64,000 bases of DNA, taken from NCBI RefSeq assembly GCF_000648235.2, contig NZ_AP017977.1:496001-560000 (forward strand). Direction: 5' to 3'. Origin of the DNA: Neochlamydia sp. S13. Its GTDB lineage: Bacteria; Chlamydiota; Chlamydiia; Chlamydiales; Parachlamydiaceae. This document shows, piece after piece, positions 1,467 through 16,782 of the stretch. Under the pieces are notes generated by a model, which did no database searches, was not told the DNA's origin, and worked only from the letters and a program-made list of their open reading frames with translations. The stretch's first letter is position 1. Each line of letters opens with the position of its first letter. The translations under genes were made by a program, and so were the position numbers.

Positions 1467-3551
1467 ATGGATAATGACATTTCAATTTCTAAAAAGCTGC
1501 AAGAAATTATAGAAAAAGAAGCTTTCGATTTATTAGATAGCTTCACCGCTTCCTATAACCTCCATTCTTTAAGGAATGAGGAAAAAATTCTTTTAGCTAA
1601 ATTATTCATTAAAAAAGGTGAGTTAGAACTTAAAAGAGGAAGTGTAAATTTCCATGAGAGTTTTGCCTTGGCTGAAAGCCTCGCTCCTTCTAATGCTACT
1701 ATTTATTTCCTTAAAGGAAAGGTTTTTGCTTCTCAAAAAGAAAATGCTCGCTGTCTTGCTGCTGCCATAGAAGCTTTTGCCCAAGCTATTGCTATCGATG
1801 CTAACTTTTTTGAAGCCTACTTAATGAGGGCGGAAACTTTAATCTTAAGTGGTTTATTTCATCAAAATCCTTATTATTTTCAAAAAGCTCAGTATAAGTT
1901 TCAGGCAGGGTATGCCCTGTTAGAAAACCAGCCCGTAGAAGTTAAATCACATTTTTTTTGGAAATGGGGATTAAGTTGCTACCTTATGGGCCTTTCTTCT
2001 GAAGAGCCTATAGACTTTCATCAAGCTATCCAAAGATATCGACAAGCCCAGCAATTAGGCCACCAATGTGCAGATTTTTGGCAGGATATGGCAGAAGCCT
2101 TAGTGGAACTCAGCGAGCTTATCAAACAGCATAAATATTGCGAAGAGGCGGTGGAGTACTATCATTTAGCTGTTTGTGAAGAGCCTGAAAGCTCCGATCG
2201 ATGGCTTAAGCTTGCTCTTTGCTATGAGAAGCTCTACGAACTTAAGGGTGATTTGCAGCATTTCGAACTTGCTCAAACTGCTTTTGAGGAGGCTTCCAAG
2301 GGGCAGGAAGCTAACTTTTTCTTATGGCTGCGTTGGGGGAAACTCTATTTAAATGCTTGTAAGCTACAAAAAAACCCTACTTATAATGTTGCTTGCATTG
2401 AGAAATTTACTAAAGCTGCCGAAATTGACCCCGATCATCCCTTACTTCTTGCTTTCGGAGGTGAGGCTGAAATGATTTTCGGCATACATACTGAGTCTCT
2501 TGCTCTTTTGCATTCAGCAGAGCACAAGATTACGCGTAGCCTTAAATTAATTCCTAAAAATCCACACATTTGGGCCTTATATGGTGCTTGCTTAAATGAG
2601 CTCGGGCGCTACTTTAGTGAGGAAAGCTATTATGTGCAAGCGGTAGATAAATTCCAGCATGGGCTTACTCTTCAAAAGCAAGATCCTGCATTATGGTATG
2701 GCCTGGCCACCTCGTATTTTTATATTGGTGAATATTGGAATGATTCTCAGCAAGTGGAAAATGCTGTTAACTGCTTTCAAAAAGCTTGCGATTTAGGAGG
2801 ACAATCTTCTTTTCAGTTTTGGAATGATTGGGGCTTAGCTTTAATGAAGCTTTCGGAGCTTACAAATGACAAAAATTATTTGGAAGCAGCCATCCAAAAA
2901 TTTGAGAAGGTGATTAATCTACAGGAAGAAATTTTTTATCATCGGCATTATGAACCTGAATGGCTTTATAATTATGGCTGTGCCCTTGATTTTTTAGGGG
3001 ATTTTTCAGAAGAGGTTTCTCATTATGAAAAAGCCATCACTGTTTTAAATAAAGCTTTAGAAATGGATCCCAATTTTACGAATGCTCGCTATAATTTAGC
3101 CGTAACTTTATCCCATCTAGGGGAAGCGACCTCAGATGTAGATATTTTGCACAGCGCTATTGAACATTTTCGAGTGGTCTTGAATATAGATATCGAAGAT
3201 GAAATGGCTTGGAATGATTGCGGATTAGCTTTTTTAAATATAGCAGAATTAGTGCATGAAGAAATTCGTCCAGAGCGCAGTAAAACTTATTATCAGGAAG
3301 CCGAGCAGAAATTTATGCATGCGTTGGCGCTAGGCTGTGCCCACACGTTTTATAATTTAGCTTGTATGCATTCTTTATTACAGAACTATCCTTCGGCTAT
3401 GCATTATTTAGAGCGAGCTGAGCAGGCGGGAACGCTGCCAGCCTTAGAAGATATGCTTAATGATGAATGGTTAGAAAATCTAATTGACACGCCTGCTTTT
3501 AGGCAATTTATCTCTCACATTGCCTCTAAACAAAACCATCTAGAAGATTGA
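1467..3551 (+). CDS. Large tetratricopeptide-repeat protein
   Basis: This 694-residue protein is built almost entirely of TPR-like helix pairs, with recurring elements such as W-x-x-x-G, A-x-x-x-F-x-x-A and blocks ending in D-P near residues 320-330, 530 and 590. There is no signal peptide or membrane segment, so a cytosolic or type III-secreted scaffold is plausible. TPR proteins mediate protein contacts; no catalytic motif is visible. The ATG at 1467 is used because the frame is closed shortly upstream; the ribosome site is weak. It stands alone, with 304 bp before the repair operon. A chlamydial housekeeping TPR protein is as likely as an effector. Confidence 0.8.
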   Translation: MDNDISISKKLQEIIEKEAFDLLDSFTASYNLHSLRNEEKILLAKLFIKKGELELKRGSVNFHESFALAESLAPSNATIYFLKGKVFASQKENARCLAAAIEAFAQAIAIDANFFEAYLMRAETLILSGLFHQNPYYFQKAQYKFQAGYALLENQPVEVKSHFFWKWGLSCYLMGLSSEEPIDFHQAIQRYRQAQQLGHQCADFWQDMAEALVELSELIKQHKYCEEAVEYYHLAVCEEPESSDRWLKLALCYEKLYELKGDLQHFELAQTAFEEASKGQEANFFLWLRWGKLYLNACKLQKNPTYNVACIEKFTKAAEIDPDHPLLLAFGGEAEMIFGIHTESLALLHSAEHKITRSLKLIPKNPHIWALYGACLNELGRYFSEESYYVQAVDKFQHGLTLQKQDPALWYGLATSYFYIGEYWNDSQQVENAVNCFQKACDLGGQSSFQFWNDWGLALMKLSELTNDKNYLEAAIQKFEKVINLQEEIFYHRHYEPEWLYNYGCALDFLGDFSEEVSHYEKAITVLNKALEMDPNFTNARYNLAVTLSHLGEATSDVDILHSAIEHFRVVLNIDIEDEMAWNDCGLAFLNIAELVHEEIRPERSKTYYQEAEQKFMHALALGCAHTFYNLACMHSLLQNYPSAMHYLERAEQAGTLPALEDMLNDEWLENLIDTPAFRQFISHIASKQNHLED

Positions 3552-3855: not shown

Positions 3856-4860
3856 ATGAGAATTCCCTTAGAAGTGAGACGGGAGGGATTATATTGTTGC
3901 CCTGGGCAATTTTATATTGATGCATGGAAACCCGTGCCCTTATCTATCATTACCCATGCCCATGGAGATCATGCCTATCGCGGCCATCAACATTATATCG
4001 CTTCAAAAGATTCTAAAGATTTACTGCTACATAGATTAGGAAGTCATATTTCGTTACAGGTGCTTTCCTATGGTGAAAAGATAAAAATAAAAGATTGTTG
4101 GGTATCGCTTCATCCGGCAGGTCATATTTTAGGCTCTTCGCAAATACGTATAGAAACAAGTAACACCGTTACCGTTATCTCCGGCGATTATAAAAGAGCT
4201 TTAGATCCCACTTGTCAGCCTTTTGAAACATTAGAATGCGATATATTTGTCACCGAATCTACCTTTGGCTTGCCTATCTATCGCTGGCAAGATAGTTTGG
4301 AGATAGCTAAGGAGATGTTTGAGTGGTGGGAACAAAACAAAGCCCACAATCACCCTTCCATTATTTATTCCTATTCATTAGGAAAAGCCCAACGTATTCT
4401 CTCTTTATTAAAGTCTTTTACAGACCAGCCCGCCTATTTGCATGGAGCTATGATGCCATTGACGAAAATCTATGCAGAAAAGGGGATTGAAATGCTGCCC
4501 TTTATTGCCTGTAGTGAACAACCAAAAGGCTATACATTCTCAAAAGATCTGATTTTAGCGCCTCCTTCTGCCGCAGGCTCACCTTGGTTAAAACGTTTTC
4601 CTCACTTTCGTGCAGCTGCAGCTTCTGGATGGATGCTGGTAAGGGGAGCCCGTAAAAGGAAAGGCATGGACCAAGGATTTGTGCTATCCGATCATGCGGA
4701 TTGGGAAGGATTAATACAAACGATTAAGCAGAGCCAAGCTAAAGTTGTGTTAACTACTCATGGGAACACTGATGTACTAGCAAAATATTTGCGTGAGCAG
4801 CTGCATGTGGATGCTAGGGAATTAAGAGGATTAGATGTGTTAGAGGAAGAGATCGATTGA
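3856..4860 (+). CDS. Ligase-associated DNA exonuclease (metallo-beta-lactamase fold)
   Basis: This 334-residue protein has the MBL metal-binding signature HAHGDH at residues 34-39, a second conserved block H-P-A-G-H at 86-90 followed by ILGSSQ, and SGDYK at 109-113. These are features of the CPSF/SNM1-like exonuclease family found beside bacterial ATP-dependent ligases. By family knowledge it is expected to trim DNA ends during repair. Its stop codon overlaps the TTG start of the ligase gene (bases 4857-4860), so the two are translationally coupled. It is the first of four genes, exonuclease-ligase-helicase-phosphoesterase, that always occur together in this cluster. Length is normal for the family. 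The specific substrate is not visible from sequence. Confidence 0.88.
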   Translation: MRIPLEVRREGLYCCPGQFYIDAWKPVPLSIITHAHGDHAYRGHQHYIASKDSKDLLLHRLGSHISLQVLSYGEKIKIKDCWVSLHPAGHILGSSQIRIETSNTVTVISGDYKRALDPTCQPFETLECDIFVTESTFGLPIYRWQDSLEIAKEMFEWWEQNKAHNHPSIIYSYSLGKAQRILSLLKSFTDQPAYLHGAMMPLTKIYAEKGIEMLPFIACSEQPKGYTFSKDLILAPPSAAGSPWLKRFPHFRAAAASGWMLVRGARKRKGMDQGFVLSDHADWEGLIQTIKQSQAKVVLTTHGNTDVLAKYLREQLHVDARELRGLDVLEEEID

Positions 4861-6449
4861 AAAATTTTACGGAATTGTTTGATCTGATTGATCAAACTTC
4901 ATCAACTAATGAAAAGCTACGCTATATGGAAGAATACTTTAAAAAAGTTCCTTCCGAAGATGGCGCCTGGGCATTATTTTTCTTAAGTGGACATAGGTTA
5001 AAAAGGTTAATAGGCTCTAAGACTTTACTCTCCTGGTGTGGAGAAATTACCCAGTTGCCAGCCTGGCTGATTGAAGAATCCTATGCTTCAGTAGGGGATA
5101 CTGCCGAAACAATATCTTTATTGTTAGAGCAATCTTGTAGTAAAAATCATTTGATTGATTTGCCTTTGTCTGCCTGGATGGAAAACCTTATTCTACCTTT
5201 AAAGTCCAAGAAAGAGGAAGAGCAAAAAAGTGCGGTTGTAGAAATTTGGAAGAGCCTCAGTAAAAAAGAGATTTTTATCTTTAATAAAATTCTTACAGGC
5301 GGCTTTCGCATCGGTGTTTCCCAGCTATCGGCTATTAAAGCTGTAAGCCAAGCTCTTCAGGTACCGAAAGAAGTGCTAAGTCAACGCGTCATGGGTCATT
5401 GGCAGCCTACTGCCAATTTTTTTGATAGCTTAAGGGTTGTTGAAGAAAAAAATAACTATTTAAACCCTTACCCTTTTTACCTAGCTTCGCCTTTGGAAGG
5501 TAACTTGGAAGCTTTGATCCATCCCCATGAATGGCAGGCAGAATGGAAATGGGATGGTATCCGCGCGCAAGTTGTTTTTAGAGAAAAAGCAGCAGCTATT
5601 TGGTCGCGTGGTAATGAGCTTATCTCTGATCAATTTCCTGAGATCCTAGAAGGAATACAAAAATTTCCCCATGGAACAGTGCTAGATGGCGAAATCCTTG
5701 CTTATGAGAATGAAACCCCTTTATCCTTCGGGGTATTACAAAAAAGGCTAGGAAGAAAAGCCCCTTCCAAAGCTATCCAAAAAGAAGCTCCTGTCGTATT
5801 TATGATTTATGATCTTTTAGAATATAACAATGTAGACCTTCGAAAAGAAGCTTTAATCAATCGGCGTAAGATTTTAGAAGAATTAGCAGAAATTCATCCG
5901 AAATTTCTAATCTCTCCTCTCATTGCTTTTAACGCGTGGGAGCAGATCCATGAAAAACGCTTAATGGCTAAGCATACTTTAACCGAAGGGATTATGCTTA
6001 AACGCTTGAACTCTCCCTATGGTACAGGGAGGCAAAGAGGAAATTGGTGGAAATATAAAATAGATCCTATGACCATCGATGCCGTCCTTCTTTATGCTCA
6101 AGCGGGTACAGGTAGAAGAGCAAATTTATATACAGATTATACTTTTGGAGTGTGGCATCAGCAGGAACTCATTCCTATCACTAAAGCCTATTCGGGATTA
6201 TCTCAGCAAGAAATTGATAAGCTCGATCGATGGATTAGGCGTAACACCGAAGAAAAATTTGGCCCTGTGCGTAAAGTGAAAGCTGAACAAGTTTTTGAAA
6301 TAGCTTTCGAAGGCATCCAAAGTTCTAAAAGGCATAAATCGGGGATTGCTCTACGTTTCCCTCGCATTGCTCGCTGGAGAAATGATAAACCTTTTACTGA
6401 ATGCGACACCCTACAACAAATTAAGCTAGAATTTTTGAATGAGCAATAA
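4857..6449 (+). CDS. ATP-dependent DNA ligase (ligase-associated repair cluster)
   Basis: The 530-residue protein carries the ATP ligase motifs: the nucleotidylation lysine K231 in KWDG (231-234), LDGEI at 276-280, FMIYDLL at 315-321, TEGIMLKR, and the motif V region W-W-K-Y-K-I-D. The N-terminal helical domain (about 1-190) and C-terminal OB domain match the LigB/LigC-like bacterial form with an extra DNA-binding domain. It seals nicks using ATP; chlamydiae normally rely on an NAD-dependent LigA, so this is probably a second, repair-specific enzyme. The start is a TTG at 4857, supported because the first residues (MKNFTELFDLID, then TSSTN) match where family members begin, and because it overlaps the stop of the exonuclease. 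It overlaps the helicase gene by 11 bases. Confidence 0.93.
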   Translation: MKNFTELFDLIDQTSSTNEKLRYMEEYFKKVPSEDGAWALFFLSGHRLKRLIGSKTLLSWCGEITQLPAWLIEESYASVGDTAETISLLLEQSCSKNHLIDLPLSAWMENLILPLKSKKEEEQKSAVVEIWKSLSKKEIFIFNKILTGGFRIGVSQLSAIKAVSQALQVPKEVLSQRVMGHWQPTANFFDSLRVVEEKNNYLNPYPFYLASPLEGNLEALIHPHEWQAEWKWDGIRAQVVFREKAAAIWSRGNELISDQFPEILEGIQKFPHGTVLDGEILAYENETPLSFGVLQKRLGRKAPSKAIQKEAPVVFMIYDLLEYNNVDLRKEALINRRKILEELAEIHPKFLISPLIAFNAWEQIHEKRLMAKHTLTEGIMLKRLNSPYGTGRQRGNWWKYKIDPMTIDAVLLYAQAGTGRRANLYTDYTFGVWHQQELIPITKAYSGLSQQEIDKLDRWIRRNTEEKFGPVRKVKAEQVFEIAFEGIQSSKRHKSGIALRFPRIARWRNDKPFTECDTLQQIKLEFLNEQ

Positions 6450-8850
6450 AGAATTAGCTTTCATTCTGGATTGGTTAAAAATAAAAGAATGGAGCCCTCT
6501 TGCCTTTCAGCAAGAAGCTTGGAAAGCATTTTTTGAAGCAAAGGATGGGTTAATTTCCGTCCCTACGGGGGCAGGTAAGACCTACGCAGCTTACCTTGCC
6601 GCTTTATCCCACCTCCATCATCATCGAGCTAAAGGTGTGCAAATCCTTTATATTACCCCTTTAAGAGCCTTGGCTAGTGACATTCAACTAGCTCTTCAAC
6701 AACCTATTCTTGATCTTAAGCTTCCCTATCGAGTAGAAAAAAGAACAGGAGACACCACGACAAGCCGAAGAGTTAAACAAGCTAAAAATCCTCCGGAGAT
6801 TTTGCTGATTACCCCTGAAAGTTTGGCGCTAGTGATAAGCAATGCAGGAGCCAAGGAGCAGCTTGCCCACTTACAGGCCATTATTATCGATGAGTGGCAT
6901 GAACTTTTGGGAACAAAACGTGGTGTCTTACTAGAACTTTGTATAGCGCGTTTAAAAAGCTGGAGTAAAAGTGTAAGGATATGGGGGCTGACAGCGACGC
7001 TTGGCAATCTGGAGGAAGCCGCTCAGGTTTGTGTAGGCATAGATCGTAAAGCTTCTTTGATTGTGACTAAGATGCCAAGGGAAGTTATCCTAGAGACTTT
7101 ATTACCGAGTAGCGTAGAAAAGCTGCCGTGGGCAGGAAAATCGGGTCTAGGCATGCTTCCCTATGTCCTTGCTAAGCTCTCTCCTCACCAATCGACCTTG
7201 ATATTTACCAATACTCGCTCGCAAGCCGAGCGCTGGTATCAAGCAATAGAAGAGGCTAAACCTGAGTGGAAAAATTTAATAGGTTTGCACCATAGCTCTA
7301 TCGACAAAAAAGAAAGAGAACTCATTGAACAACGTCTGAAAGAGGGGATCCTGAAATGCGTAGTGTGTACTTCTTCGCTGGATTTAGGAATTGATTTTTC
7401 TCCTGTAGAGCAAGTGATTCAAGTAGGATCGCCCAAAAGTATTGCCCGTTTATTGCAAAGAGCAGGTCGTTCCTCTCACCGTCCTCTTACTCCTTGCCGC
7501 TTGTTTATTGTTCCTACCCATGCTTTAGAGATTGCTGAATTGAAAAGCTATCGTAAGGCCTTACAGCAGCAGTTGATCGAAAATCGTATGCCCTTGACGC
7601 ATACATTCGATGTTCTTATCCAGCACTTAGTGACTTGTGCGATTGGTGGAGGATTTAATAAAGATGAAATGTTTAAAGAGATTAAAACGACCTATGCCTT
7701 TAAAGATTTAACACTAGAAGAATTTGATAGCTGCCTAGAATTTTTAATTCATGGAGGGAAAGCTTTAACGGCCTATCCTGAATATAAAAAGCTTGTGATA
7801 GAAGAAAATCTTTATAAAGTTGTCGATAAAAAAATCATTCAGTTTCATCGCCTAAATATCGGTACGATCACCTCTGAGCCTCATATTCCTGTGAAGATGG
7901 CTAATGGAAAATCCTTAGGGATCATTGAAGAAAATTTTTTATCCAGCTTGAAAAAAGGCGATCGTTTTTTGTTTGGGGGACGTCTCTTAGAACTTATTCA
8001 ATTTCGTGACCTAACAGCTTATGTGCGCCTTAGTAAAGGGGTGCCTAAAACTGCCGCCGTATGGCGCGGTGGCAGGCTTCCATTTTCAGCTCCTTTAGGA
8101 AAAATGTTAAGAGAATCTTTAAATCCCTCTCCAGAGATCTACCCGGAAAATGCTTTTTTAGAGCAAATTCTTGCCATACAAAAAAAGCTTTCCTCTATTC
8201 CCCACGAAAATGAGATGCTTATCGAGAGTTTAAAATCACGAGAGGGCTGGCATCTTTTTTTTTATCCTTTTGAAGGCAAAGCTGTCCATCAGGGACTTGC
8301 TTATATTATTGCTTCCCGCTTATCTAAAAGTAACCATGGTACATTTACCTTAAGTTCTAACGATTACGGCCTTGAAATTCTTAGCTGCGCGCCTTTCCAC
8401 GAAGAAATTTTAAATAATGCTTTATTTGCTTTCGATAAGCTGGAAGAAGAGATCACCTCGCTTATCAATCTTCATGAGCTAGCGCGCTCTTCTTTTCGAG
8501 ACATCGCCCGCATTTCAGGGCTTATTTTTCAAGGCTATCCAGGTAAACATAAAACTCATCGTCAAGTGCAGGTGAGTAGTAGCTTGCTCTATGAAGTTTT
8601 TAGTAAATATGACCCCTCGAATTTATTAATACAACAGGCAAAAAGTGAGGTAATCCATCAGCAGTTTGAGTTAAATAGAATTTTGCAAGTATTGAAAAGA
8701 TTATCCACCTCCCTTATCATTCTTACGCACCCCCCCAAATTAAGTCCATTGGCTCTGCCTCTTTATATAGAAAGAGTGAGTGGTCATCTTACCAATGAAA
8801 CTTTAGAAGAGCGTATTGAGAAAATTAAAAGTAGCTGGAAAAGAAAATGA
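6439..8850 (+). CDS. Ligase-associated Lhr-like DEXH-box helicase
   Basis: The 803-residue protein is a superfamily 2 helicase. Walker A is PTGAGKT (42-48), the DEXH box reads DEWH (151-154), motif III TAT lies at 185-187, and the C-terminal RecA domain has the motif VI block Q-R-A-G-R-S-S-H-R. The rest (about 400-803) is the winged-helix and Lhr core region. This is the short Lhr form that accompanies ATP ligase and exonuclease in bacterial repair clusters; it unwinds DNA or RNA-DNA hybrids with ATP. It starts inside the ligase gene (11-base overlap) and its TGA overlaps the ATG of the next gene (ATGA at 8847-8850), so the whole operon is coupled. No key motif is missing. Confidence 0.92.
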   Translation: MSNKELAFILDWLKIKEWSPLAFQQEAWKAFFEAKDGLISVPTGAGKTYAAYLAALSHLHHHRAKGVQILYITPLRALASDIQLALQQPILDLKLPYRVEKRTGDTTTSRRVKQAKNPPEILLITPESLALVISNAGAKEQLAHLQAIIIDEWHELLGTKRGVLLELCIARLKSWSKSVRIWGLTATLGNLEEAAQVCVGIDRKASLIVTKMPREVILETLLPSSVEKLPWAGKSGLGMLPYVLAKLSPHQSTLIFTNTRSQAERWYQAIEEAKPEWKNLIGLHHSSIDKKERELIEQRLKEGILKCVVCTSSLDLGIDFSPVEQVIQVGSPKSIARLLQRAGRSSHRPLTPCRLFIVPTHALEIAELKSYRKALQQQLIENRMPLTHTFDVLIQHLVTCAIGGGFNKDEMFKEIKTTYAFKDLTLEEFDSCLEFLIHGGKALTAYPEYKKLVIEENLYKVVDKKIIQFHRLNIGTITSEPHIPVKMANGKSLGIIEENFLSSLKKGDRFLFGGRLLELIQFRDLTAYVRLSKGVPKTAAVWRGGRLPFSAPLGKMLRESLNPSPEIYPENAFLEQILAIQKKLSSIPHENEMLIESLKSREGWHLFFYPFEGKAVHQGLAYIIASRLSKSNHGTFTLSSNDYGLEILSCAPFHEEILNNALFAFDKLEEEITSLINLHELARSSFRDIARISGLIFQGYPGKHKTHRQVQVSSSLLYEVFSKYDPSNLLIQQAKSEVIHQQFELNRILQVLKRLSTSLIILTHPPKLSPLALPLYIERVSGHLTNETLEERIEKIKSSWKRK

Positions 8851-9488
8851 TAACGATAAAAATCCGTGGGCAGACTATTCATTTGTTACCGCAAAGGGCT
8901 GCTTATTGGGAAGAGAATAAAGCTTTGATAGTCGCTGATATTCACCTCGGAAAAGCAGCCACTATGCAAAGAGCGGGAATTGCTGTACCTGAAGGGGCTA
9001 TGGATCAAGACTTGATCAACCTTAAAAATATAATCGAACATACAGGCGCTCAACGCTGTATCGTGGTAGGCGATCTTATTCATGCCCAAAATGGCCTCTC
9101 TGAAGGCGTGCAATCAAAATTTGGCGAGTGGCTTTCTATCATCAATTGCTCAGTAGATCTTATCCTGGGCAACCACGATCAAGCGTTAAAAAATTATATG
9201 CCGGCAAGCTGGAAATTACAGGTCCATCAAGAATACTTGGCGATCAAGCCTTTTTACTTTAACCATTTTCCTATAACCATAGAGAACCACTTTGTTTGGT
9301 CAGGGCACCTTCACCCTCAAATTTTACTCAAAAGTAGGCACGATCAGCTAAATTTGCGCTGCTTCCAAATTTCCGACTCTCTAGCTGTTTTGCCAGCCTT
9401 CAGCGATTTTGTAGGAGGTTCTACTGTCTCTAAGAATGCAGACAATCGCATCTTTGCACTAGCCGGTAAAAAGGTGGTCGAAATATAA
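8847..9488 (+). CDS. pdeM: PdeM-like ligase-associated metallophosphoesterase
   Basis: This 213-residue protein has the calcineurin-like metal-binding motifs in order: D-x-H at 31-33 (DIHLGK), GDLIH at 75-79, GNHD at 108-111 and GHLHP at 153-157. The C-terminal block L-P-A-F-x-x-F-x-G-G is typical of the ligase-associated subfamily. Members act as phosphodiesterases or nucleases and are assigned to DNA damage response through genome context. It is the last gene of the four-gene operon, coupled by an ATGA overlap to the helicase. Nothing after it looks cotranscribed; IS and TPR debris follow. Confidence 0.9.
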   Translation: MITIKIRGQTIHLLPQRAAYWEENKALIVADIHLGKAATMQRAGIAVPEGAMDQDLINLKNIIEHTGAQRCIVVGDLIHAQNGLSEGVQSKFGEWLSIINCSVDLILGNHDQALKNYMPASWKLQVHQEYLAIKPFYFNHFPITIENHFVWSGHLHPQILLKSRHDQLNLRCFQISDSLAVLPAFSDFVGGSTVSKNADNRIFALAGKKVVEI

Positions 9489-9820: not shown

Positions 9821-10423
9821 ACCTACATTCCGCAGGTCAAAATAATAGCGTGATATTATTTTTCTAATAATTCTTAAGGATTGGCTGAAGTCCTTTTTAA
9901 GAAAAAACTACCTTTGTTCCTCTTAAAGCAAAGAAAAAGAGGATATAAACAATGCAAGAGTATAGTAGCAAAGATCTGGACCACTTAGGAATTGTTTCTG
10001 CCATGGGTGACAAAATTAATTGAGTGAGCATGATAGATCAGCTAATTCCTCCTGTTCTCCGAGCTATTATAGCAACAGGAGAAGGTGCCAAATTAATGGT
10101 CATCAATGGATTAGGTTTTACTTTGCCTCCTTTAGCTCTAGAGCACAATTTTGTGCAAGTCAATTTATGGAGCGATTAGTAGGGAGGCCATGTAAGTCTG
10201 GAAATGTATCTGATGATCGTTTAGGTAGAGCTCTAGACCGCTGCTACAAATAGGGATGTGATGCTATTTTTTCAGCCATTGCCAGGCAAGCTTGAATTTC
10301 TTAAAATTAAAATCTCCCTCAATCACTTTGCTTTAAAATACAAAATAATCCTTAAAGCCAATCAGATGGTTTATCAAGAACTATAAACTTTACAGATAAA
10401 TGGCGTTGTTGCGGAAGGTGAGT
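9821..10423 (+). pseudogene. Decayed, internally deleted IS1634-like element
   Basis: An ATG at 9952 opens a frame that resembles the start of the intact transposase at 15062-16687: both have D-H-L-G-(I/L)-V near residue 9 and then V-I-N-G-L-G-F or I-L-N-G-L-G-F. The frame is broken by TGA at 10021 and TAG near 10177; the match resumes in another frame around 10219-10290 (L-G-R-A-L-D-R then a stop, then A-I-F-S-A-I-A). The middle and C-terminal transposase are absent. ACCTACATTCCGCAG at 9821-9835 and TTGCGGAAGGTGAGT at 10409-10423 form imperfect inverted termini (11 of 15), and the left one matches the right end of the intact element at 13 of 15. So this is a ~600-bp deletion derivative. Confidence 0.7.
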
Positions 10424-10530: not shown

Positions 10531-12333
10531 TTACTTACGTTTACGTTCTTGTTCGGTAAGAAAACGTTTACGCATACGAATAGCATCAGGGGTAACTTCG
10601 ATCAGTTCATCGTCTTGAATATAGTCGATTGCTTGCTCGAGAGTAAATCTACGGGCAGGCACTAGAATAACGTTCTCGTCACTGCCGGAGGCACGCATAT
10701 TCGTTAGCTGTTTGCCTTTAGAAACGTTGACCATCAAGTCATTATCGCGGCTATTTTCGCCGACGATCATCCCCTCATAAATATCATCACCTGGTGAGAC
10801 AAACATGGTGCCTCGATCTTGTAAGTTGAAAAGCGAGTATCCTGTGGCTTTTCCTGGAGCCATAGAGACTAATACTCCACGCAGACGACCAGGAATTACA
10901 CCTTTCCATGGGGAGAAGTTTTCAAAGATAGAGGTAAGAATCCCTAAGCCGCGTGTTTGGGTTAAAAATTCATTACGGTAGCCCATTAATCCCCGTGTAG
11001 GCATTAAGAATTCCATACGGGTGATTTTATGCTCATCGGTATCCAGATGCTGCATTTCCCCTTTACGGCGGGATAACTCTTCGATCACTGTACCAGCATA
11101 TTCCTCAGGTACTTCAATATGCACACGTTCCATCGGTTCATGCTTTTCACCCTCGATTTCTTTAATCACGACGGTAGGCTTAGAGATACTAAATTCAAAG
11201 CTTTCGCGGCGCATTGCTTCAATAAGTACGGCCAAATGCAATTCACCTCTTCCAGCGACAGAAACTTTTTCATCGGTGGCGTCAATACGTAAGGAAATAT
11301 TTGCTTTTTTCTCTTTTTCTAGCCGCTCACGGAGTTTGTTCATAGTTACATGCTTACCACTACGACCTACAAAGGGGCTGTTGTTGACTGTAAAGTCAAT
11401 AGAGACGGTAGGCTCATCCAGTTTGATAGGAGGAAGGTGAACAATTTTACTTGGATCGGTAAGGGTATCGCCGATCATGATCGAAGGGATTCCGGATAAA
11501 ATTACAATATCGCCTACAGAAGCTTCTTCGAGTTCAATTCTTTCTAGGCCACGAAAGCCTTCTATGCGGGAAATCGTTGATTTTGTCTGCTTGCCAGAAG
11601 CATCAATATGGATGACCTGTTGGCCTTTTTTAAGTGAGCCTTCTAAAATACGTCCTGAAGCTTGGCGGCCTAGGAAGTCATCATAATAGATGGTAGAAAC
11701 TTGCATAAGAAAGGGATTCTCAAGGTCCCCTTTAGGTTCAGGAACTGCATCGATAATCAATTCAAAAAGAGGACGCATATCCTCTCGAGGATCATTAACA
11801 TGTTGGGTAGCAAATCCTGATAACCCTGAGGCATAGCAATAGCGGAAATCTAATTGTTCGTCAGTGGCCCCTAGCTCATTAAAAAGATCAAAGGTAAGAT
11901 CTAAAACTTTGTCGGGATTGGCATGGGGACGATCGATCTTGTTAAGAACGACAATAGGTTTTAGACCCATTTTAAGAGATTTAGATAACACAAAACGCGT
12001 TTGGGGCATAGGGCCTTCTTGTGCATCGACTAGCAATAATACGGAGTTAACCATTCCAAGAATTCGTTCCACTTCCCCAGAAAAATCCGCGTGTCCAGGC
12101 GTATCGATAATATTGATTTTGAAATCCTCAAATTGAACGGCAGTGTGTTTAGCAAAGATTGTAATTCCCCGCTCTTTCTCTTGATCATAGGAATCCATGA
12201 TACGTTCGGGTATTTGTTGATTATCTCGGAAAATATTGGACTGCTTAAGTAAGGCATCCAATAGAGTGGTTTTTCCATGGTCAATGTGAGCGATAATGGC
12301 TATATTACGAATCTTATTCTTTGATGGCATCAT
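10531..12333 (-). CDS. typA: Ribosome-associated GTPase TypA/BipA
   Basis: The 600-residue protein is a full-length translational GTPase close to the usual ~607. G1 is AHIDHGKT (15-22), followed by the switch II block [12 protein letters not shown] and NKIDR (G4). The order GTPase, domain II, EF-G-like domains III/V and the BipA C-terminal domain is intact. It binds 70S ribosomes and is linked in other bacteria to stress and 50S assembly. Two ATG codons are adjacent at the start (12333 and 12330); either could be used. It is a single gene, divergent from mgtE with a 191-bp gap, and followed by a hairpin. Confidence 0.95.
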
Positions 12334-12524: not shown

Positions 12525-13991
12525 TTGGAAGCTACAATTCATAATAAAAAAGAAGATAATGACGAAGAACATGGCTATACTTTTAGCTTATTAGATTCAA
12601 AAAGAAGCCATCTCGATGATGTATTAAATGAAAAGCTTGAAGATGCTTTTCATCAGCATACCTCTGATATTCTTTTGCATGATGTAGCTAAAATTGCTAG
12701 CCAGCATGATCCCATTGATATGGCCCACGCCGTAACCCGTTTGCCTCCTCAGGCGCGTGTAATTGTCTATGAAAATCTTCCGGATTTGAATGCCAAAATT
12801 ATCTTTATGATCAATACGAGCAGCTCTACCCGTTCTGCAATCTTTCGGCAGATTGATGATAGCGAAATTAAAAGTTTGATAGAAAAAATGCCTCCTGATG
12901 AAGCAGTCTGGATCTTAGACGATATGTCTGATCGAAGAATGAGAAGAGTCTTTGATCTTTTAGAACCCAAAAAAGCACAACGTATTAAAGAGCTTCAAAA
13001 GCATGACCGCCATAGTGCAGGTCGCTTAATGACAGACGAGTTTTTTGCTTTTCATATGAATACTACAATTGGGGAAGTGTCCGCTTATATTCGGGATAAT
13101 CCCGGGATAGAGTTAACACGTCGAATTTTTGTTTTGAATGATGAGGGCCAGCTGGTGGGTTATGTACCGGGTCGAAATCTTATTGTAAATCCTCATTATC
13201 TGCCTTTGCGCCAAATCATGCGTCCAATTTTGCAGAAAGTCACTGTAGATGTTTCTCGTGATGAAGTGGTAGATGTCGTGGAGCGTTATAAAATTCCTGC
13301 CTTGCCTGTTGTGGATGAAAATGAGCATTTAAGAGGAGTAATTACCTATGAAAGTGTAGTAGAGGCCATGGAAGATATTGCCGATGAAACGATTGCTAAT
13401 ATTGCTGGTACTGCCGAAGATTATAGGGAGTACGAACCTATTTTAAAAAGATTTTTAGGAAGAGCTCCTTGGCTGATGGTGACTCTATGTGCAGGCTTAG
13501 TTTCTACCGGGGTCATGTCTCATTTTTATGATCGTTCTTGGTTTGCTTTACTACCTTTTTTTGTGCCTCTCATTACGGGTATGTCGGGTAATGTAGGGAT
13601 TCAGTGTAGCACTATCCTCGTACGAGGATTGTCAACAGGGGATATTTCTCCCGGATATAAAAGTGAGGCTATTAGCCGTGAGCTTGCTATAGGCTTACTG
13701 ATTGGATTAGTATTTGGTTTAATTTGTGGAACTGTAGTCTATCTGCTTAATTACTTTGGAGTGCATCATCTTCAGGCTGATCCTTTATCCTTAGGGATTA
13801 CAGTTTCTTGCGGAGTGTTTGGGGCCTGCTTAGCGGCAACAATGCTAGGCTCTTTTTCGCCCTTCTTTTTTGTGCGGTTTGGTATCGATCCTGCGGTTGC
13901 TTCTGGACCTATCGTCACAGCTTTCAATGATGTATTATCCACTTTGATCTTTTTTCTCTTTGCTCGCTTAGTTTATGCTTTCATTACTTAA
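12525..13991 (+). CDS. mgtE: Magnesium transporter MgtE
   Basis: The 488-residue protein has the MgtE layout: an N-terminal helical domain (about 55-160), a CBS pair (about 165-285) and five membrane segments from residue 310. The pore signature P-L-I-T-G-M-S-G-N-V-G-I-Q lies at 348-360 with the following R-G-L. It is a Mg2+-gated channel of the inner membrane; the cytosolic domains sense Mg2+. The start is the TTG at 12525, decided by a GGAGG at 12516-12520 and by the lack of any in-frame ATG before the conserved domain (first internal Met near residue 66). Spacing of four bases is short but workable. It is transcribed away from typA. Confidence 0.93.
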   Translation: MEATIHNKKEDNDEEHGYTFSLLDSKRSHLDDVLNEKLEDAFHQHTSDILLHDVAKIASQHDPIDMAHAVTRLPPQARVIVYENLPDLNAKIIFMINTSSSTRSAIFRQIDDSEIKSLIEKMPPDEAVWILDDMSDRRMRRVFDLLEPKKAQRIKELQKHDRHSAGRLMTDEFFAFHMNTTIGEVSAYIRDNPGIELTRRIFVLNDEGQLVGYVPGRNLIVNPHYLPLRQIMRPILQKVTVDVSRDEVVDVVERYKIPALPVVDENEHLRGVITYESVVEAMEDIADETIANIAGTAEDYREYEPILKRFLGRAPWLMVTLCAGLVSTGVMSHFYDRSWFALLPFFVPLITGMSGNVGIQCSTILVRGLSTGDISPGYKSEAISRELAIGLLIGLVFGLICGTVVYLLNYFGVHHLQADPLSLGITVSCGVFGACLAATMLGSFSPFFFVRFGIDPAVASGPIVTAFNDVLSTLIFFLFARLVYAFIT

Positions 13992-14066: not shown

Positions 14067-14768
14067 ATGCCTAAAATTGCAGGAAAAGATGTGAAAGAGT
14101 ATCTTACTTTGCTTAGCGTCAATTTAGTAGTAAAGGTAAAAAATCTTCGAGAATATGTAAAGGTTATCTATCGTTATTATCGCAAGCTTTCCTACGCGGT
14201 AGTGGATAGCTCACTTCTTCTTATGTATCTTTTTGATAATCCCTTTACAGTCAGCCGTCGCTATTTTTCTTGCCGTTCAGATAGCGAAGAATACATTTAT
14301 GGAGAAACACCTTTAACCACATTAGAAAAAATTTCTAAAGAAGCGCGTATTCATTCCCAGGATCTTGTCATTGAACTAGGGTGTGGGCGTGGCCGTACCT
14401 GCTTTTGGCTACAAAAGTTTACAGGCTGCCGTGTGGTAGGTTTGGATATGGTTCCAGATTTTATTCTTCGTGCTAAGCGTATTCAGCATAAATTAAAAAT
14501 TACCCATTTAGAATTTAAGCAAGAAAATTTTTTATTAGCAGATCTTACTAAAGCTTCTGTCATCTATTTGTATGGTACTTGTTTAGAAGCTCAAACCATC
14601 AAAAGGTTAATTGAACAGTTAAAACAGTTAGCAGCAGGTACACGCATCATCACGGTCAGCTATCCTCTAACTGACTATACCGAAGAGCCTACCTTCGAAA
14701 TTATGAAACGTTTTTCAGCACCTTTTACCTGGGGGAAGGCGGACGTTTATATTCAAATTAAGAAATAG
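14067..14768 (+). CDS. Class I SAM-dependent methyltransferase
   Basis: The 233-residue protein has a glycine-rich SAM-binding loop VIELGCGRGR (101-110) and the acidic residue of motif II in GLDMVP (125-130), the classical Rossmann methyltransferase pattern. Residues 1-60 form an N-terminal extension with a basic, amphipathic and partly hydrophobic stretch that may contact membrane. The substrate cannot be read from the sequence. AAGGAAGG lies about 8 bases before the ATG. It follows mgtE by 75 bp on the same strand and may share its transcript. Confidence 0.8.
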   Translation: MPKIAGKDVKEYLTLLSVNLVVKVKNLREYVKVIYRYYRKLSYAVVDSSLLLMYLFDNPFTVSRRYFSCRSDSEEYIYGETPLTTLEKISKEARIHSQDLVIELGCGRGRTCFWLQKFTGCRVVGLDMVPDFILRAKRIQHKLKITHLEFKQENFLLADLTKASVIYLYGTCLEAQTIKRLIEQLKQLAAGTRIITVSYPLTDYTEEPTFEIMKRFSAPFTWGKADVYIQIKK

Positions 14769-15060
14769 CTGGCAATAAGTCATGAAAGAATAGCAGAAAA
14801 ATTTCTCTTTGGCGTGCGTGAAAGTGATTTAAATTGCTAATTCATAAGAGAAGCTAACCAAAGTTGTGCCTCTATATATTTTTTATTGCCACGTAGGTAA
14901 TCATTTAAAGATCATGCGAAGGTGTCTTTTAAACCATAAGCTTTTATGTTAGGGGATCTAATATTCAATCTACACTCTTTCTCCCCCTTCGGCTTGATAA
15001 TTCTTAAGGTAGGCTTAATCAAGCAGAAAAGTGGAGAAAAAAACTTAAGAACCGTGATTT

Positions 15061-16782
15061 CTCACCACATTTCAGAATAATAGAATTTTTGGTAAGGAGG
15101 CCCTAAGCATCTAAGGATAATTCTATGGCGTTCTTTCAAATTGGTAATTTGCAATTTTTTATGGTCAATAAAGACCATATGCAGGCCTAGGAAACAGAAA
15201 AACACCCAGCGTGTGGTTGGCTTTTGCGTAGGTTTCTTAAGCTGATTTAAGAAGTTCTCACCATTTTCTCGCAATTTTTCTCGAATTTTATATTCAAGCG
15301 CAGAATAGACTAAAAGGCATAGAGTCATTACCATTAAAAGAGCTTCTATTCTTTCTGGCTTTTTTAGAAAGAAAGAAGAGACTAGGAAATCGGGACTTTT
15401 CAAGAATCTAAATCCTCTTTCTACACTTTGCTGTGCTTTATATGTTTTCAAAACTTCCTGAGCAGGAAAAGCGATTACATCCATATCATTAGTTGCTAAG
15501 ATGAAAAACCCTTTACTCCTCTCTAACTCTGCTTTGTTAAGCAAAGAGCAGGCTACTGTGCCTTCTAGGTGATAGCTAAGTATAGAAGGTGCTTGCCCAG
15601 CTTTTGGTCGACCAGATGTAGTATGCTTTTGAGTTGCTATAACTTGAGGTTCTATAATTTGTATATATTTAAGCTTTTTTGCAAACTTATCTAATTGGCG
15701 CTTAGCATCATTGGGGCATGAAAACTCTTGCTTTATAAACTTAAAGAAAGCTTTGGATTCTTTCTCACTGCCCTTAAGATAATGCTTGGCTAAAGTGCGG
15801 CATTCTCTTTGATAGGCCGCTTGGCTAAAGATAACTACCCATCTTTGTTCAACACCGGCATAGCAAGAGGTACTTTCAAAAGCTCGATAGCCTTCTGTTA
15901 TTTCTACCGTCTTGTCGTAAGGCACTTCAAATATGAGCTCTTTAGCCTCTTTGATTTGCATGGGTACACGCGTGACAAATAAGCTTTGTTCTTCTTTAAG
16001 AACTTGTAAGGTAGCTGGCGTATAAAGAGCACTGTCTCCTACTATATAACGATTCTCTACCGCTTGCCGAAAGCTTTTAAGATGTTCGCCAACAATTTGC
16101 GTAAAGGCGGCCTTATCACTGCTATTGCCATCAGCCGCTTGCATGTATAAAGGAATATTGCCTTCATTGGAGGTGATAAGCTGCAAGACGGCTTGATTTA
16201 AATCAGGCCTATGGTCTCTACTGTAGCCTTGCACTAGGCGAATGCATGCTTCTCCTTGTTCTAATAGGCTCTCATAGTTTCCATCTACGTGAAAGCTTGT
16301 GGCATCTAAATGTAAACTTTTTACTTGGATGCCAAGCACTTTGATTGTATGTAAAGCTATTTTAGTAAAAAGCTCGGTCACTCCCAACTCAAATAACTTA
16401 TCCAGCGCTCTCCCCAAAACATTATCATCAATCTGCTCGGGAATGACTGGCGTACCTAGCAAATGATCGATGGGTTTATCTTCAAAGTACTCAGAATACA
16501 TGTAAAGCGTCCGACTTACAAATCCCAATCCATTTAAGATCATGCATTTAACAGCTTGCCCATAGGTTAAATGCTTATTCTTCGCCTGGTTACCTACTGC
16601 TTGATCAATAAGGTCAACTAACCCTATCTCCTCACACATTCCAGCTACCAATCCTAAATGATCGACGTTTTGCGTATCTATCTGCATAACTTTTAGTCGT
16701 TTAGTTTAATCCCTTAAAGAAAACATCTTACTCGATTAGTCTTCAAAATTCCTAATTATTTTTTTTGCTGAGGAATGTAAGT
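15061..16782 (-). mobile_element. IS1634-like insertion sequence, ends approximate
   Basis: An intact transposase gene is bounded on the right by CTGAGGAATGTAAGT (16768-16782), whose complement matches the left end of the fossil element at 9821 (13 of 15). On the left, CTCACC then ACATTTCAG (15061-15075) overlaps the transposase stop and shares the terminal GGTGAG (complement) with the right end of the fossil. This gives an element of about 1.7 kb. The left end is a poor inverted match to the right end, and no target duplication is evident, so the ends are tentative. Confidence 0.5.
15062..16687 (-). CDS. IS1634-family DDE transposase (DUF4277 N-terminus)
   Basis: The 541-residue protein appears complete. 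Its N-terminal 110 residues show the DUF4277 pattern (D-H-L-G-L-V-A, I-L-N-G-L-G-F, L-G-R-A-L-D-K). Candidate catalytic residues are D128 in L-H-L-D-A-T, D218 in V-G-D-S-A-L-Y and E423 in V-E-R-G-F-R-F, which fit the DDE order of IS1634/IS4-type enzymes. It cuts and joins element ends. The gene is uninterrupted, unlike the fossil at 9821-10423, so it may be active. No accessory gene lies inside the element. Confidence 0.9.
   Translation of the reverse strand: MQIDTQNVDHLGLVAGMCEEIGLVDLIDQAVGNQAKNKHLTYGQAVKCMILNGLGFVSRTLYMYSEYFEDKPIDHLLGTPVIPEQIDDNVLGRALDKLFELGVTELFTKIALHTIKVLGIQVKSLHLDATSFHVDGNYESLLEQGEACIRLVQGYSRDHRPDLNQAVLQLITSNEGNIPLYMQAADGNSSDKAAFTQIVGEHLKSFRQAVENRYIVGDSALYTPATLQVLKEEQSLFVTRVPMQIKEAKELIFEVPYDKTVEITEGYRAFESTSCYAGVEQRWVVIFSQAAYQRECRTLAKHYLKGSEKESKAFFKFIKQEFSCPNDAKRQLDKFAKKLKYIQIIEPQVIATQKHTTSGRPKAGQAPSILSYHLEGTVACSLLNKAELERSKGFFILATNDMDVIAFPAQEVLKTYKAQQSVERGFRFLKSPDFLVSSFFLKKPERIEALLMVMTLCLLVYSALEYKIREKLRENGENFLNQLKKPTQKPTTRWVFFCFLGLHMVFIDHKKLQITNLKERHRIILRCLGPPYQKFYYSEMW

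Follow-up and report, generated by a model that had tools for sequence, protein, structure and literature searches.

Known Ligase-Associated Clusters and the Chlamydial Locus

LigB-type ATP-dependent DNA ligases are described, in the available text of PMC10140301, as typically sharing an operon with genes for Lhr, for a phosphodiesterase and for a putative nuclease of the metallo-beta-lactamase (MBL) fold, the damage they target being given there as not known. For the Lhr-Core of M. smegmatis and P. putida, the available part of PMC7437997 reports 3' to 5' translocation on single-stranded DNA, together with an active site of the metallophosphoesterase (MPE) that resembles Mre11. Here we analyzed a stretch of 64,000 nucleotides of Neochlamydia sp. 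S13 (hereafter, the window; positions 496,001 to 560,000 of NZ_AP017977.1, or C1:496001-560000 of genome G000, 2.82 Mb in two contigs), in which positions 3856-9488 hold an intact four-gene cluster, EXO-LIG-LHR-PDE, of the known ligase-associated DNA damage response type. The best overall explanation, which we consider quite likely, is that this cluster, intact and under selection, was gained as a block by the ancestor of G000 and its relative G094, and that its alleles have been exchanged among chlamydial genera.

The window shares all four families and the gene order with the P. putida cluster (LigB, Lhr-Core, MPE and Exo; TIGR04120-04123), and its kind is therefore not new. It differs in its chlamydial host, in its compact, overlapping junctions, and in that the chlamydial alleles form their own clade, with a genus-discordant phylogeny and changing sites. 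A two-gene EXO-LIG form, known from plasmids of Phaeobacter and Sinorhizobium, has the same first two genes as the window; the window has all four, whereas five chlamydial genomes are without LHR and PDE. Among 80 named loci, the best 80 of 590 confirmed stretches (79 non-chlamydial ones and L088, from an uncultured Chlamydiae bacterium), the four genes occurred in the same order at 40, EXO-LIG at 19, EXO-LIG-LHR at 7, EXO alone at 12, and EXO-PDE and EXO-LIG-PDE at 1 each, the shorter classes being upper bounds owing to contig ends and stretch limits. LigD-type ligases of nonhomologous end joining are likewise accessory and ATP-dependent, but the window ligase has a DNA_ligase_A_N domain and no primase-polymerase domain, and is not of the LigD type.

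In chlamydiae, the available text of PMC3899948 lists P. amoebophila pc0951 (exonuclease) and pc0948 (metallophosphoesterase) singly among unique genes and describes no cluster there; the spacing of the two locus tags suggests that they probably represent the same cluster in another chlamydia. No published account of a ligase-associated cluster in chlamydiae was found in a literature search that left out most subscription papers. Chlamydiae have already been reported to have gained genes extensively through transfer (PMC9816063, in its available part), so that transfer as such is not new.

The Four Genes in the Window

All four genes lie adjacent and co-directional on the forward strand. EXO (3856-4860, 334 aa), a ligase-associated DNA damage response exonuclease of the MBL/beta-CASP nuclease class, matched TIGR04122 with 438.8 bits (cut-off 325); LIG (4857-6449, 530 aa), a LigB-type ATP-dependent DNA ligase, matched TIGR04120 with 587.1 bits (cut-off 400); LHR (6439-8850, 803 aa), a Lhr-Core type DEXH helicase, matched TIGR04121 with 1038.5 bits (cut-off 850); and PDE (8847-9488, 213 aa), a PdeM/MPE-type metallophosphoesterase nuclease, matched TIGR04123 with 212.4 bits (cut-off 150). 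The EXO/LIG, LIG/LHR and LHR/PDE junctions overlap by 4, 11 and 4 bases, respectively, LIG starting with a TTG that overlaps the EXO stop; these overlaps suggest that the genes are probably read as one transcript with coupled translation. LIG comprises the domains DNA_ligase_A_N, A_M and A_C, and LHR the domains DEAD, Helicase_C, WH_Lhr and DEAD_assoc at the length of an Lhr-Core. Judged by patterns that we take to be the catalytic motifs, all four proteins are intact, with HAHGDH in EXO, KWDGIR at residue 231 of LIG, TGAGKT and DEWH in LHR, and DIHLGK, GDLIH, GNHD and GHLHP in PDE. A promoter scan gave 10 hits against a shuffled mean of 15.1 and a terminator scan 11 against 7.0 (sd 3.4); neither was used as evidence.

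A preliminary description, made from the letters of this DNA, had reported a complete cluster with every junction overlapping in a host that already has a NAD-dependent ligase. The open reading frames, the NCBIfam cut-offs and every coordinate agreed with the first point, and a TIGR00575 match of 787.7 bits in G000 bore out the second. No second PF01068 ligase was found in the G000 genome, the cluster LIG being the sole match.

Distribution and Gene Content

A ligase above the TIGR04120 cut-off was present in 22 of the 232 genomes of the phylum, exactly one in each, and weaker matches, below the cut-off, occurred in many chlamydiae. EXO, PDE and LHR exceeded their cut-offs in 19, 17 and 15 genomes, respectively; LHR fell below in G070 (832 bits) and as a contig-cut piece in G085. 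Twenty of the carriers belong to the window's family, f1 (38 genomes, G000 and G067-G103), the others being G029 (f5) and G148 (f24). When only good-quality genomes were counted (>=90% complete and <=5% contaminated), the ligase was found in 18 of 137 in the phylum, with 16 of 21 in f1 and 2 of 116 outside it, indicating that the cluster is usual within the family and rare beyond. The premise that reduced intracellular genomes usually lack such accessory repair thus held for the phylum and failed for the window's own family. In a sample of Verrucomicrobiota, the phylum of genome G232, 12 of 240 genomes had a ligase above the cut-off. A PdeM-like frame of 90.8 bits, below the cut-off of 150, was also seen in G030 (G030:C28:82311-82907), a genome without a ligase match above the cut-off.

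Gene content varied among the carriers. All four genes were found in 16 of 22, on one contig in 14 and on two contigs in G084 and G085; in G089, a contig end cuts PDE. In G070, two outer membrane protein beta-barrel genes (L056 7041-8295) part LIG from LHR, and in G103 LIG-LHR-PDE is accompanied by an EXO spread over two frames. LHR and PDE were jointly absent from five carriers: G091, G099 and G102, which have EXO-LIG alone, G101, in which EXO-LIG spans two contig ends, and G095, in which LIG is accompanied by an EXO spread over several frames. Since a frame break also occurs in an unrelated gene of G095, the damage to its EXO may be an assembly error. EXO-LIG can stand without LHR and PDE, and the ligase defines all 22 carriers. 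The range of intact, shortened and lost versions amounts to a natural test of which components are required.

Chromosomal Sites of the Cluster

To compare insertion sites, typA was sought in 12 genomes and found in 11, and eleven stretches around typA, leaving out that of G085, were compared. In the window, the cluster is flanked on the left by a gene of tetratricopeptide repeats (TPR; 1467-3551, forward strand), which adjoins typA in genus-mates without the cluster at this place, and on the right by typA/bipA (10531-12333, reverse strand; TIGR01394, 881.1 bits), which is convergent with the cluster; mgtE (12525-13991, forward strand; TIGR00400, 236.4 bits, cut-off 232.75) is a conserved neighbour on the far side of typA. 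Where the cluster is absent, the gap between the TPR gene and typA measured 0.95 kb in G093, 3.45 kb in G095, and 0.36-1.4 kb in G098, G099, G103 and G071. No cluster remnants were detected in these gaps of G093, G095 and G098 (best match of a cluster protein, E 0.065), and no TPR homologue was found at typA in G096, G097 and G069. G094 carries the cluster at the same place as G000, but PDE and typA are 10 kb apart there; this interval encodes a TPR-rich protein of 1292 aa with F-box-like and DUF294 matches (L045 14814-18692). In G069, of another genus, the cluster stands beside typA in the opposite orientation (L043 2298-11011), and, from this genome and the window, the typA neighbourhood is a possible insertion hot spot.

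The cluster of G093 lies 5' of a tRNA-Met gene. That site is unoccupied in G000 and G094, where the neighbouring gene is about 0.4 kb from tRNA-Met, and is occupied by other genes in G095. The genus of the window, g1 (G000, G094, G093 and G095), holds three diverged alleles at three sites. Almost every chlamydial genome has cluster flanks of its own, shared ones being seen only in G071/G072, G091/G102 and, on the left side, G000/G094; in addition, typA-mgtE is near the cluster in both G000 and G069, and genes for SDR and DUF892 proteins are near it in both G095 and G098.

These comparisons favour a scheme in which the ancestor of G000 and G094 most likely gained the cluster as one block between the TPR gene and typA, after the split from G093 and G095, whose alleles differ and lie elsewhere. 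All these alleles belong, in this scheme, to a chlamydia-specific clade that moved between chlamydial genera and whose members underwent repeated loss or reduction to EXO-LIG. Chlamydiae of f1 are thus open to the exchange of repair genes, a complete repair operon having most likely been acquired at a place that is still unoccupied in genus-mates. Between G000 and G094, the dN/dS ratios (nonsynonymous to synonymous substitution) were 0.089, 0.041, 0.058 and 0.058 for the four genes, and dS was 0.23-0.32 in the cluster and 0.23-0.29 in the TPR gene, typA and mgtE. Because the cluster dS resembles that of the flanking genes, the cluster has probably been inherited vertically since the G000/G094 split, under purifying selection.

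Phylogeny and the Case for Transfer

The LIG tree contained 22 chlamydial ligases, 32 of the 79 named non-chlamydial ones and 12 others from the Planctomycetes-Verrucomicrobia-Chlamydiae group, L168 and L170, which duplicate L162 and L139, being omitted; a second LIG tree left out the long-branch L139 and added three alphaproteobacterial plasmid rows. Outside rows numbered 18 in the LHR tree and 30 in the EXO tree, and the outside sampling was without Bacteroidota and represented alphaproteobacteria by the three plasmid loci only. For RpoB, no match was obtained in G101 and G073, and G069, G070, G088 and G089 gave partial pieces. Approximately unbiased (AU) tests of the RpoB, single-gene and concatenated cluster trees against one another were carried out on 14 of the 22 carriers, those with all four genes on one contig.

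Within g1, the RpoB tree joined G000 with G094, then G093, then G095, with identities to G000 of 99.2%, 94.5% and 93.6%, respectively; TypA identities were 100% (G094), 88% (G093) and 90% (G095), against 77-81% in other genera. The ligases of G093 and G095 were only 53% and 57% identical to that of the window. In the LIG tree, g1 fell in three places and genus g27 in three, and G100 (g27) paired with G083 (g17) with support of 100/99. A single clade was rejected by the AU test on LIG for g1 (p-AU 2.8e-10) and for g27 (8e-141). Further, G000 and G093, of one genus, were 94.5% identical in RpoB and 49.5% in the cluster, and G083 and G100, of different genera, were 82.7% and 81.6% identical. Over 91 pairs, which are not independent, the Spearman correlation of cluster with RpoB identity was 0.06-0.12, and that of LIG with the other three genes was 0.69-0.89. 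The tree of the concatenated cluster was accepted by EXO (p-AU 0.23), LIG (0.139), LHR (0.494) and PDE (0.255), and the RpoB tree was rejected by all four (9e-7, 9e-43, 2e-48 and 3e-37, respectively); conversely, RpoB data rejected every cluster tree (concatenated, 4e-53).

The patchy presence of the cluster, the reciprocal empty sites and the fact that each of the four genes rejects the RpoB tree make acquisition by transfer, rather than inheritance from one chlamydial ancestor, well supported. The preliminary description had proposed such a transfer, and the outcome that would have spoken for ancestry, namely the cluster in all Chlamydiae with congruent phylogeny, was looked for and is not what the trees and the distribution show. 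In favour of a cluster already present in the last common ancestor of these families, with its patchiness due to loss and rearrangement, one main chlamydial clade united 20 of 22 rows in the LIG tree (100/100; 100/99 after alphaproteobacteria were added), 17 of 19 in the EXO tree (91/92) and 15 of 15 in the LHR tree (100/97), with the ligase common in good-quality f1 genomes. However, the cluster trees and RpoB reject each other, one genus holds diverged alleles at three sites, empty sites have conserved flanks, and G148, of family f24, nests within f1 alleles in the LIG, LHR and EXO trees; we regard ancestral inheritance as quite improbable. Hidden paralogy, in which several ancient copies were retained differently by different lineages, would also yield diverged alleles at different loci without transfer, but it requires many independent losses and sits poorly with the single ligase above the cut-off in each of the 22 genomes and with the near-equality of cluster and RpoB identity in G083/G100, and we consider it very improbable.

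Transfer among chlamydiae is also to be distinguished from a recent import into the window species directly from a non-chlamydial donor. The system is accessory and patchy, and the ligase occurs on 73 plasmid records of other bacteria, which speaks for such an import. Nevertheless, chlamydial proteins were the nearest relatives of the window proteins in every tree built, outside EXO proteins were at most 55% identical among the best 80 of 590 stretches, and the GC content of the four genes (39-43%, with 38.8% for the whole window) and that of third codon positions (33-42%) resemble those of neighbouring genes; this alternative is the least credible of those considered. The nearest non-chlamydial neighbours differed by gene with weak support, and no donor was named in the search. 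Of the idea that phylogeny of the four proteins would reveal a common donor, a shared history was thus recovered, with conflicts in detail, and a donor outside Chlamydiae could not be named. G091 and G102 lie outside the main chlamydial clade in the LIG and EXO trees and represent, by these topologies, a separate entry, which brings the minimum for EXO and LIG to two entries; one clade of all 22 chlamydial ligases was rejected more weakly (0.0169).

Several points weigh against block gain in the G000/G094 ancestor followed by exchange among genera. LIG data rejected the EXO tree (p-AU 0.0038) and the LHR tree (0.0056), LHR data rejected the EXO tree (0.016), on which PDE data gave 0.048, and the PDE tree was rejected by EXO, LIG and LHR data; since the single-gene trees conflict in detail, exact unity of the cluster is not shown. 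RpoB served as the main species proxy. A single old acquisition with later exchange could also account for the clade of 20 of 22 ligases, and the number of transfers is accordingly not fixed. Intergenic DNA does not align, so that insertion boundaries are not placeable, and the cluster itself yielded neither an integrase nor a transposase. For the chlamydial copies, no data on expression or damage came to light.

Enzyme Relatives and a Proposed Repair Route

The only relatives of PDE in the PDB at E 0.001 were two nuclease MPE entries, 6nvo (E 1e-35) and 6nvp, which, from a paper title, we take to be from P. putida. The best PDB match of LHR was an ATP-dependent DNA helicase (5v9x, E 1.5e-58). 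For EXO, an AlphaFold2 model with a mean predicted local distance difference test score of 94.0 was used, and its best predicted fold matches were archaeal CPSF and TTHA0252 (Z 29-30, VIA-align). Sequence matches were likewise better to Ysh1 (3.5e-16) than to SNM1A (5.6e-7), which stood at Foldseek rank 48 and was absent from the best 50 VIA-align rows, an absence that excludes nothing. SNM1/DCLRE1A was therefore not the closest relative, RNase-type beta-CASP proteins scoring better by sequence and by Foldseek.

From these relatives we infer a route in which LHR, translocating 3' to 5', would open damaged duplex, PDE would incise the exposed single strand, EXO would trim and LIG would seal, running beside the NAD-dependent ligase. 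Repair genes adjoin some chlamydial copies, namely umuDC at the cluster of G086, a Fpg-like gene beside that of G095 and a LigD primase-polymerase near the ligase of G101, which fits a repair mechanism. In G086, the umuD- and umuC-like genes (L048 16364-18139) adjoin EXO and are divergent from it.

The proximity of EXO to beta-CASP RNases, in sequence and in fold, makes an RNA or hybrid substrate a real alternative, in which the main target would be RNA:DNA hybrids or lesions containing ribonucleotides, and not cross-links or ordinary DNA lesions. A histidine in the last beta-CASP motif is a mark of the RNA type, and His280 and His302 of EXO align with Ysh1 histidines and are invariant across 29 EXO proteins. 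The NCBIfam names of the families, in contrast, refer to the DNA damage response, a shared fold shows no substrate, and the title of one paper reportedly describes the P. putida MPE as a single-strand DNA endonuclease. A mycobacterial Lhr prefers RNA:DNA hybrids, according to the available text of PMC7437997 and a title cited in PMC8301817. On balance, we regard an RNA-containing main target as possible but somewhat unlikely; in either case, the RNase-like fold of EXO renders the substrate of a widespread cluster testable.

A role in anti-phage defence was weighed as well, given the patchy, mobile behaviour of the cluster and the likeness of LHR to the helicase model SngC (246.5 bits). EXO, LIG and PDE had no PADLOC match at 1e-5, and LHR matched helicase models only and scored 1038.5 bits for TIGR04121; no single PADLOC system was recovered, the helicase alone being matched, at family level, and defence appears highly improbable. 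EXO matches were absent from 50,697 phage records, and of 20 pattern stretches in viral contigs, none was confirmed. A broader and more tentative proposal, which we hold to be rather doubtful as a whole, is that the repair operon is a circulating cassette among obligately intracellular chlamydiae, moving between genera as a unit, settling at new sites with no evident integrase of its own, frequently lost or replaced, and possibly repairing RNA-containing or hybrid lesions, in place of ordinary DNA damage, by means of an RNase-type beta-CASP nuclease.

Mobile Elements near the Cluster

Among the neighbours scanned with Pfam at the chlamydial loci, which were the nearest genes and not whole flanks, no transposase or integrase was found except for an insertion sequence remnant in the window and an integrase in G093. 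The former, a decayed DUF4277-type transposase between PDE and typA (9967-10283, forward strand; two tblastn segments), was 36.5% and 33.9% identical (E 4e-12) to an intact transposase with DUF4277 and DDE_Tnp_1 domains elsewhere in the window (15062-16687).

In G093, tRNA-Met (L055 14052-14126) stands about 110 bases past the cluster and is followed by a decayed tyrosine integrase (14278-15273); at the same place, G095 has an open frame of 357 aa (L199 7570-8643). This integrase was considered as a vehicle. It lies beyond tRNA-Met, on its other side, and is also present in G095 without the cluster there, and it was therefore not taken as one. In G000, the corresponding stretch L200 (G000:C1:1694000-1713999) repeats the 3' half of tRNA-Met over 43 bases at 1816-1858 and again at 7488-7530, with tRNA-Met itself at 8699-8773. 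Each repeat is followed by a homologue of the N-terminal part of an integrase, an arrangement that resembles two integration scars in tandem at a single tRNA.

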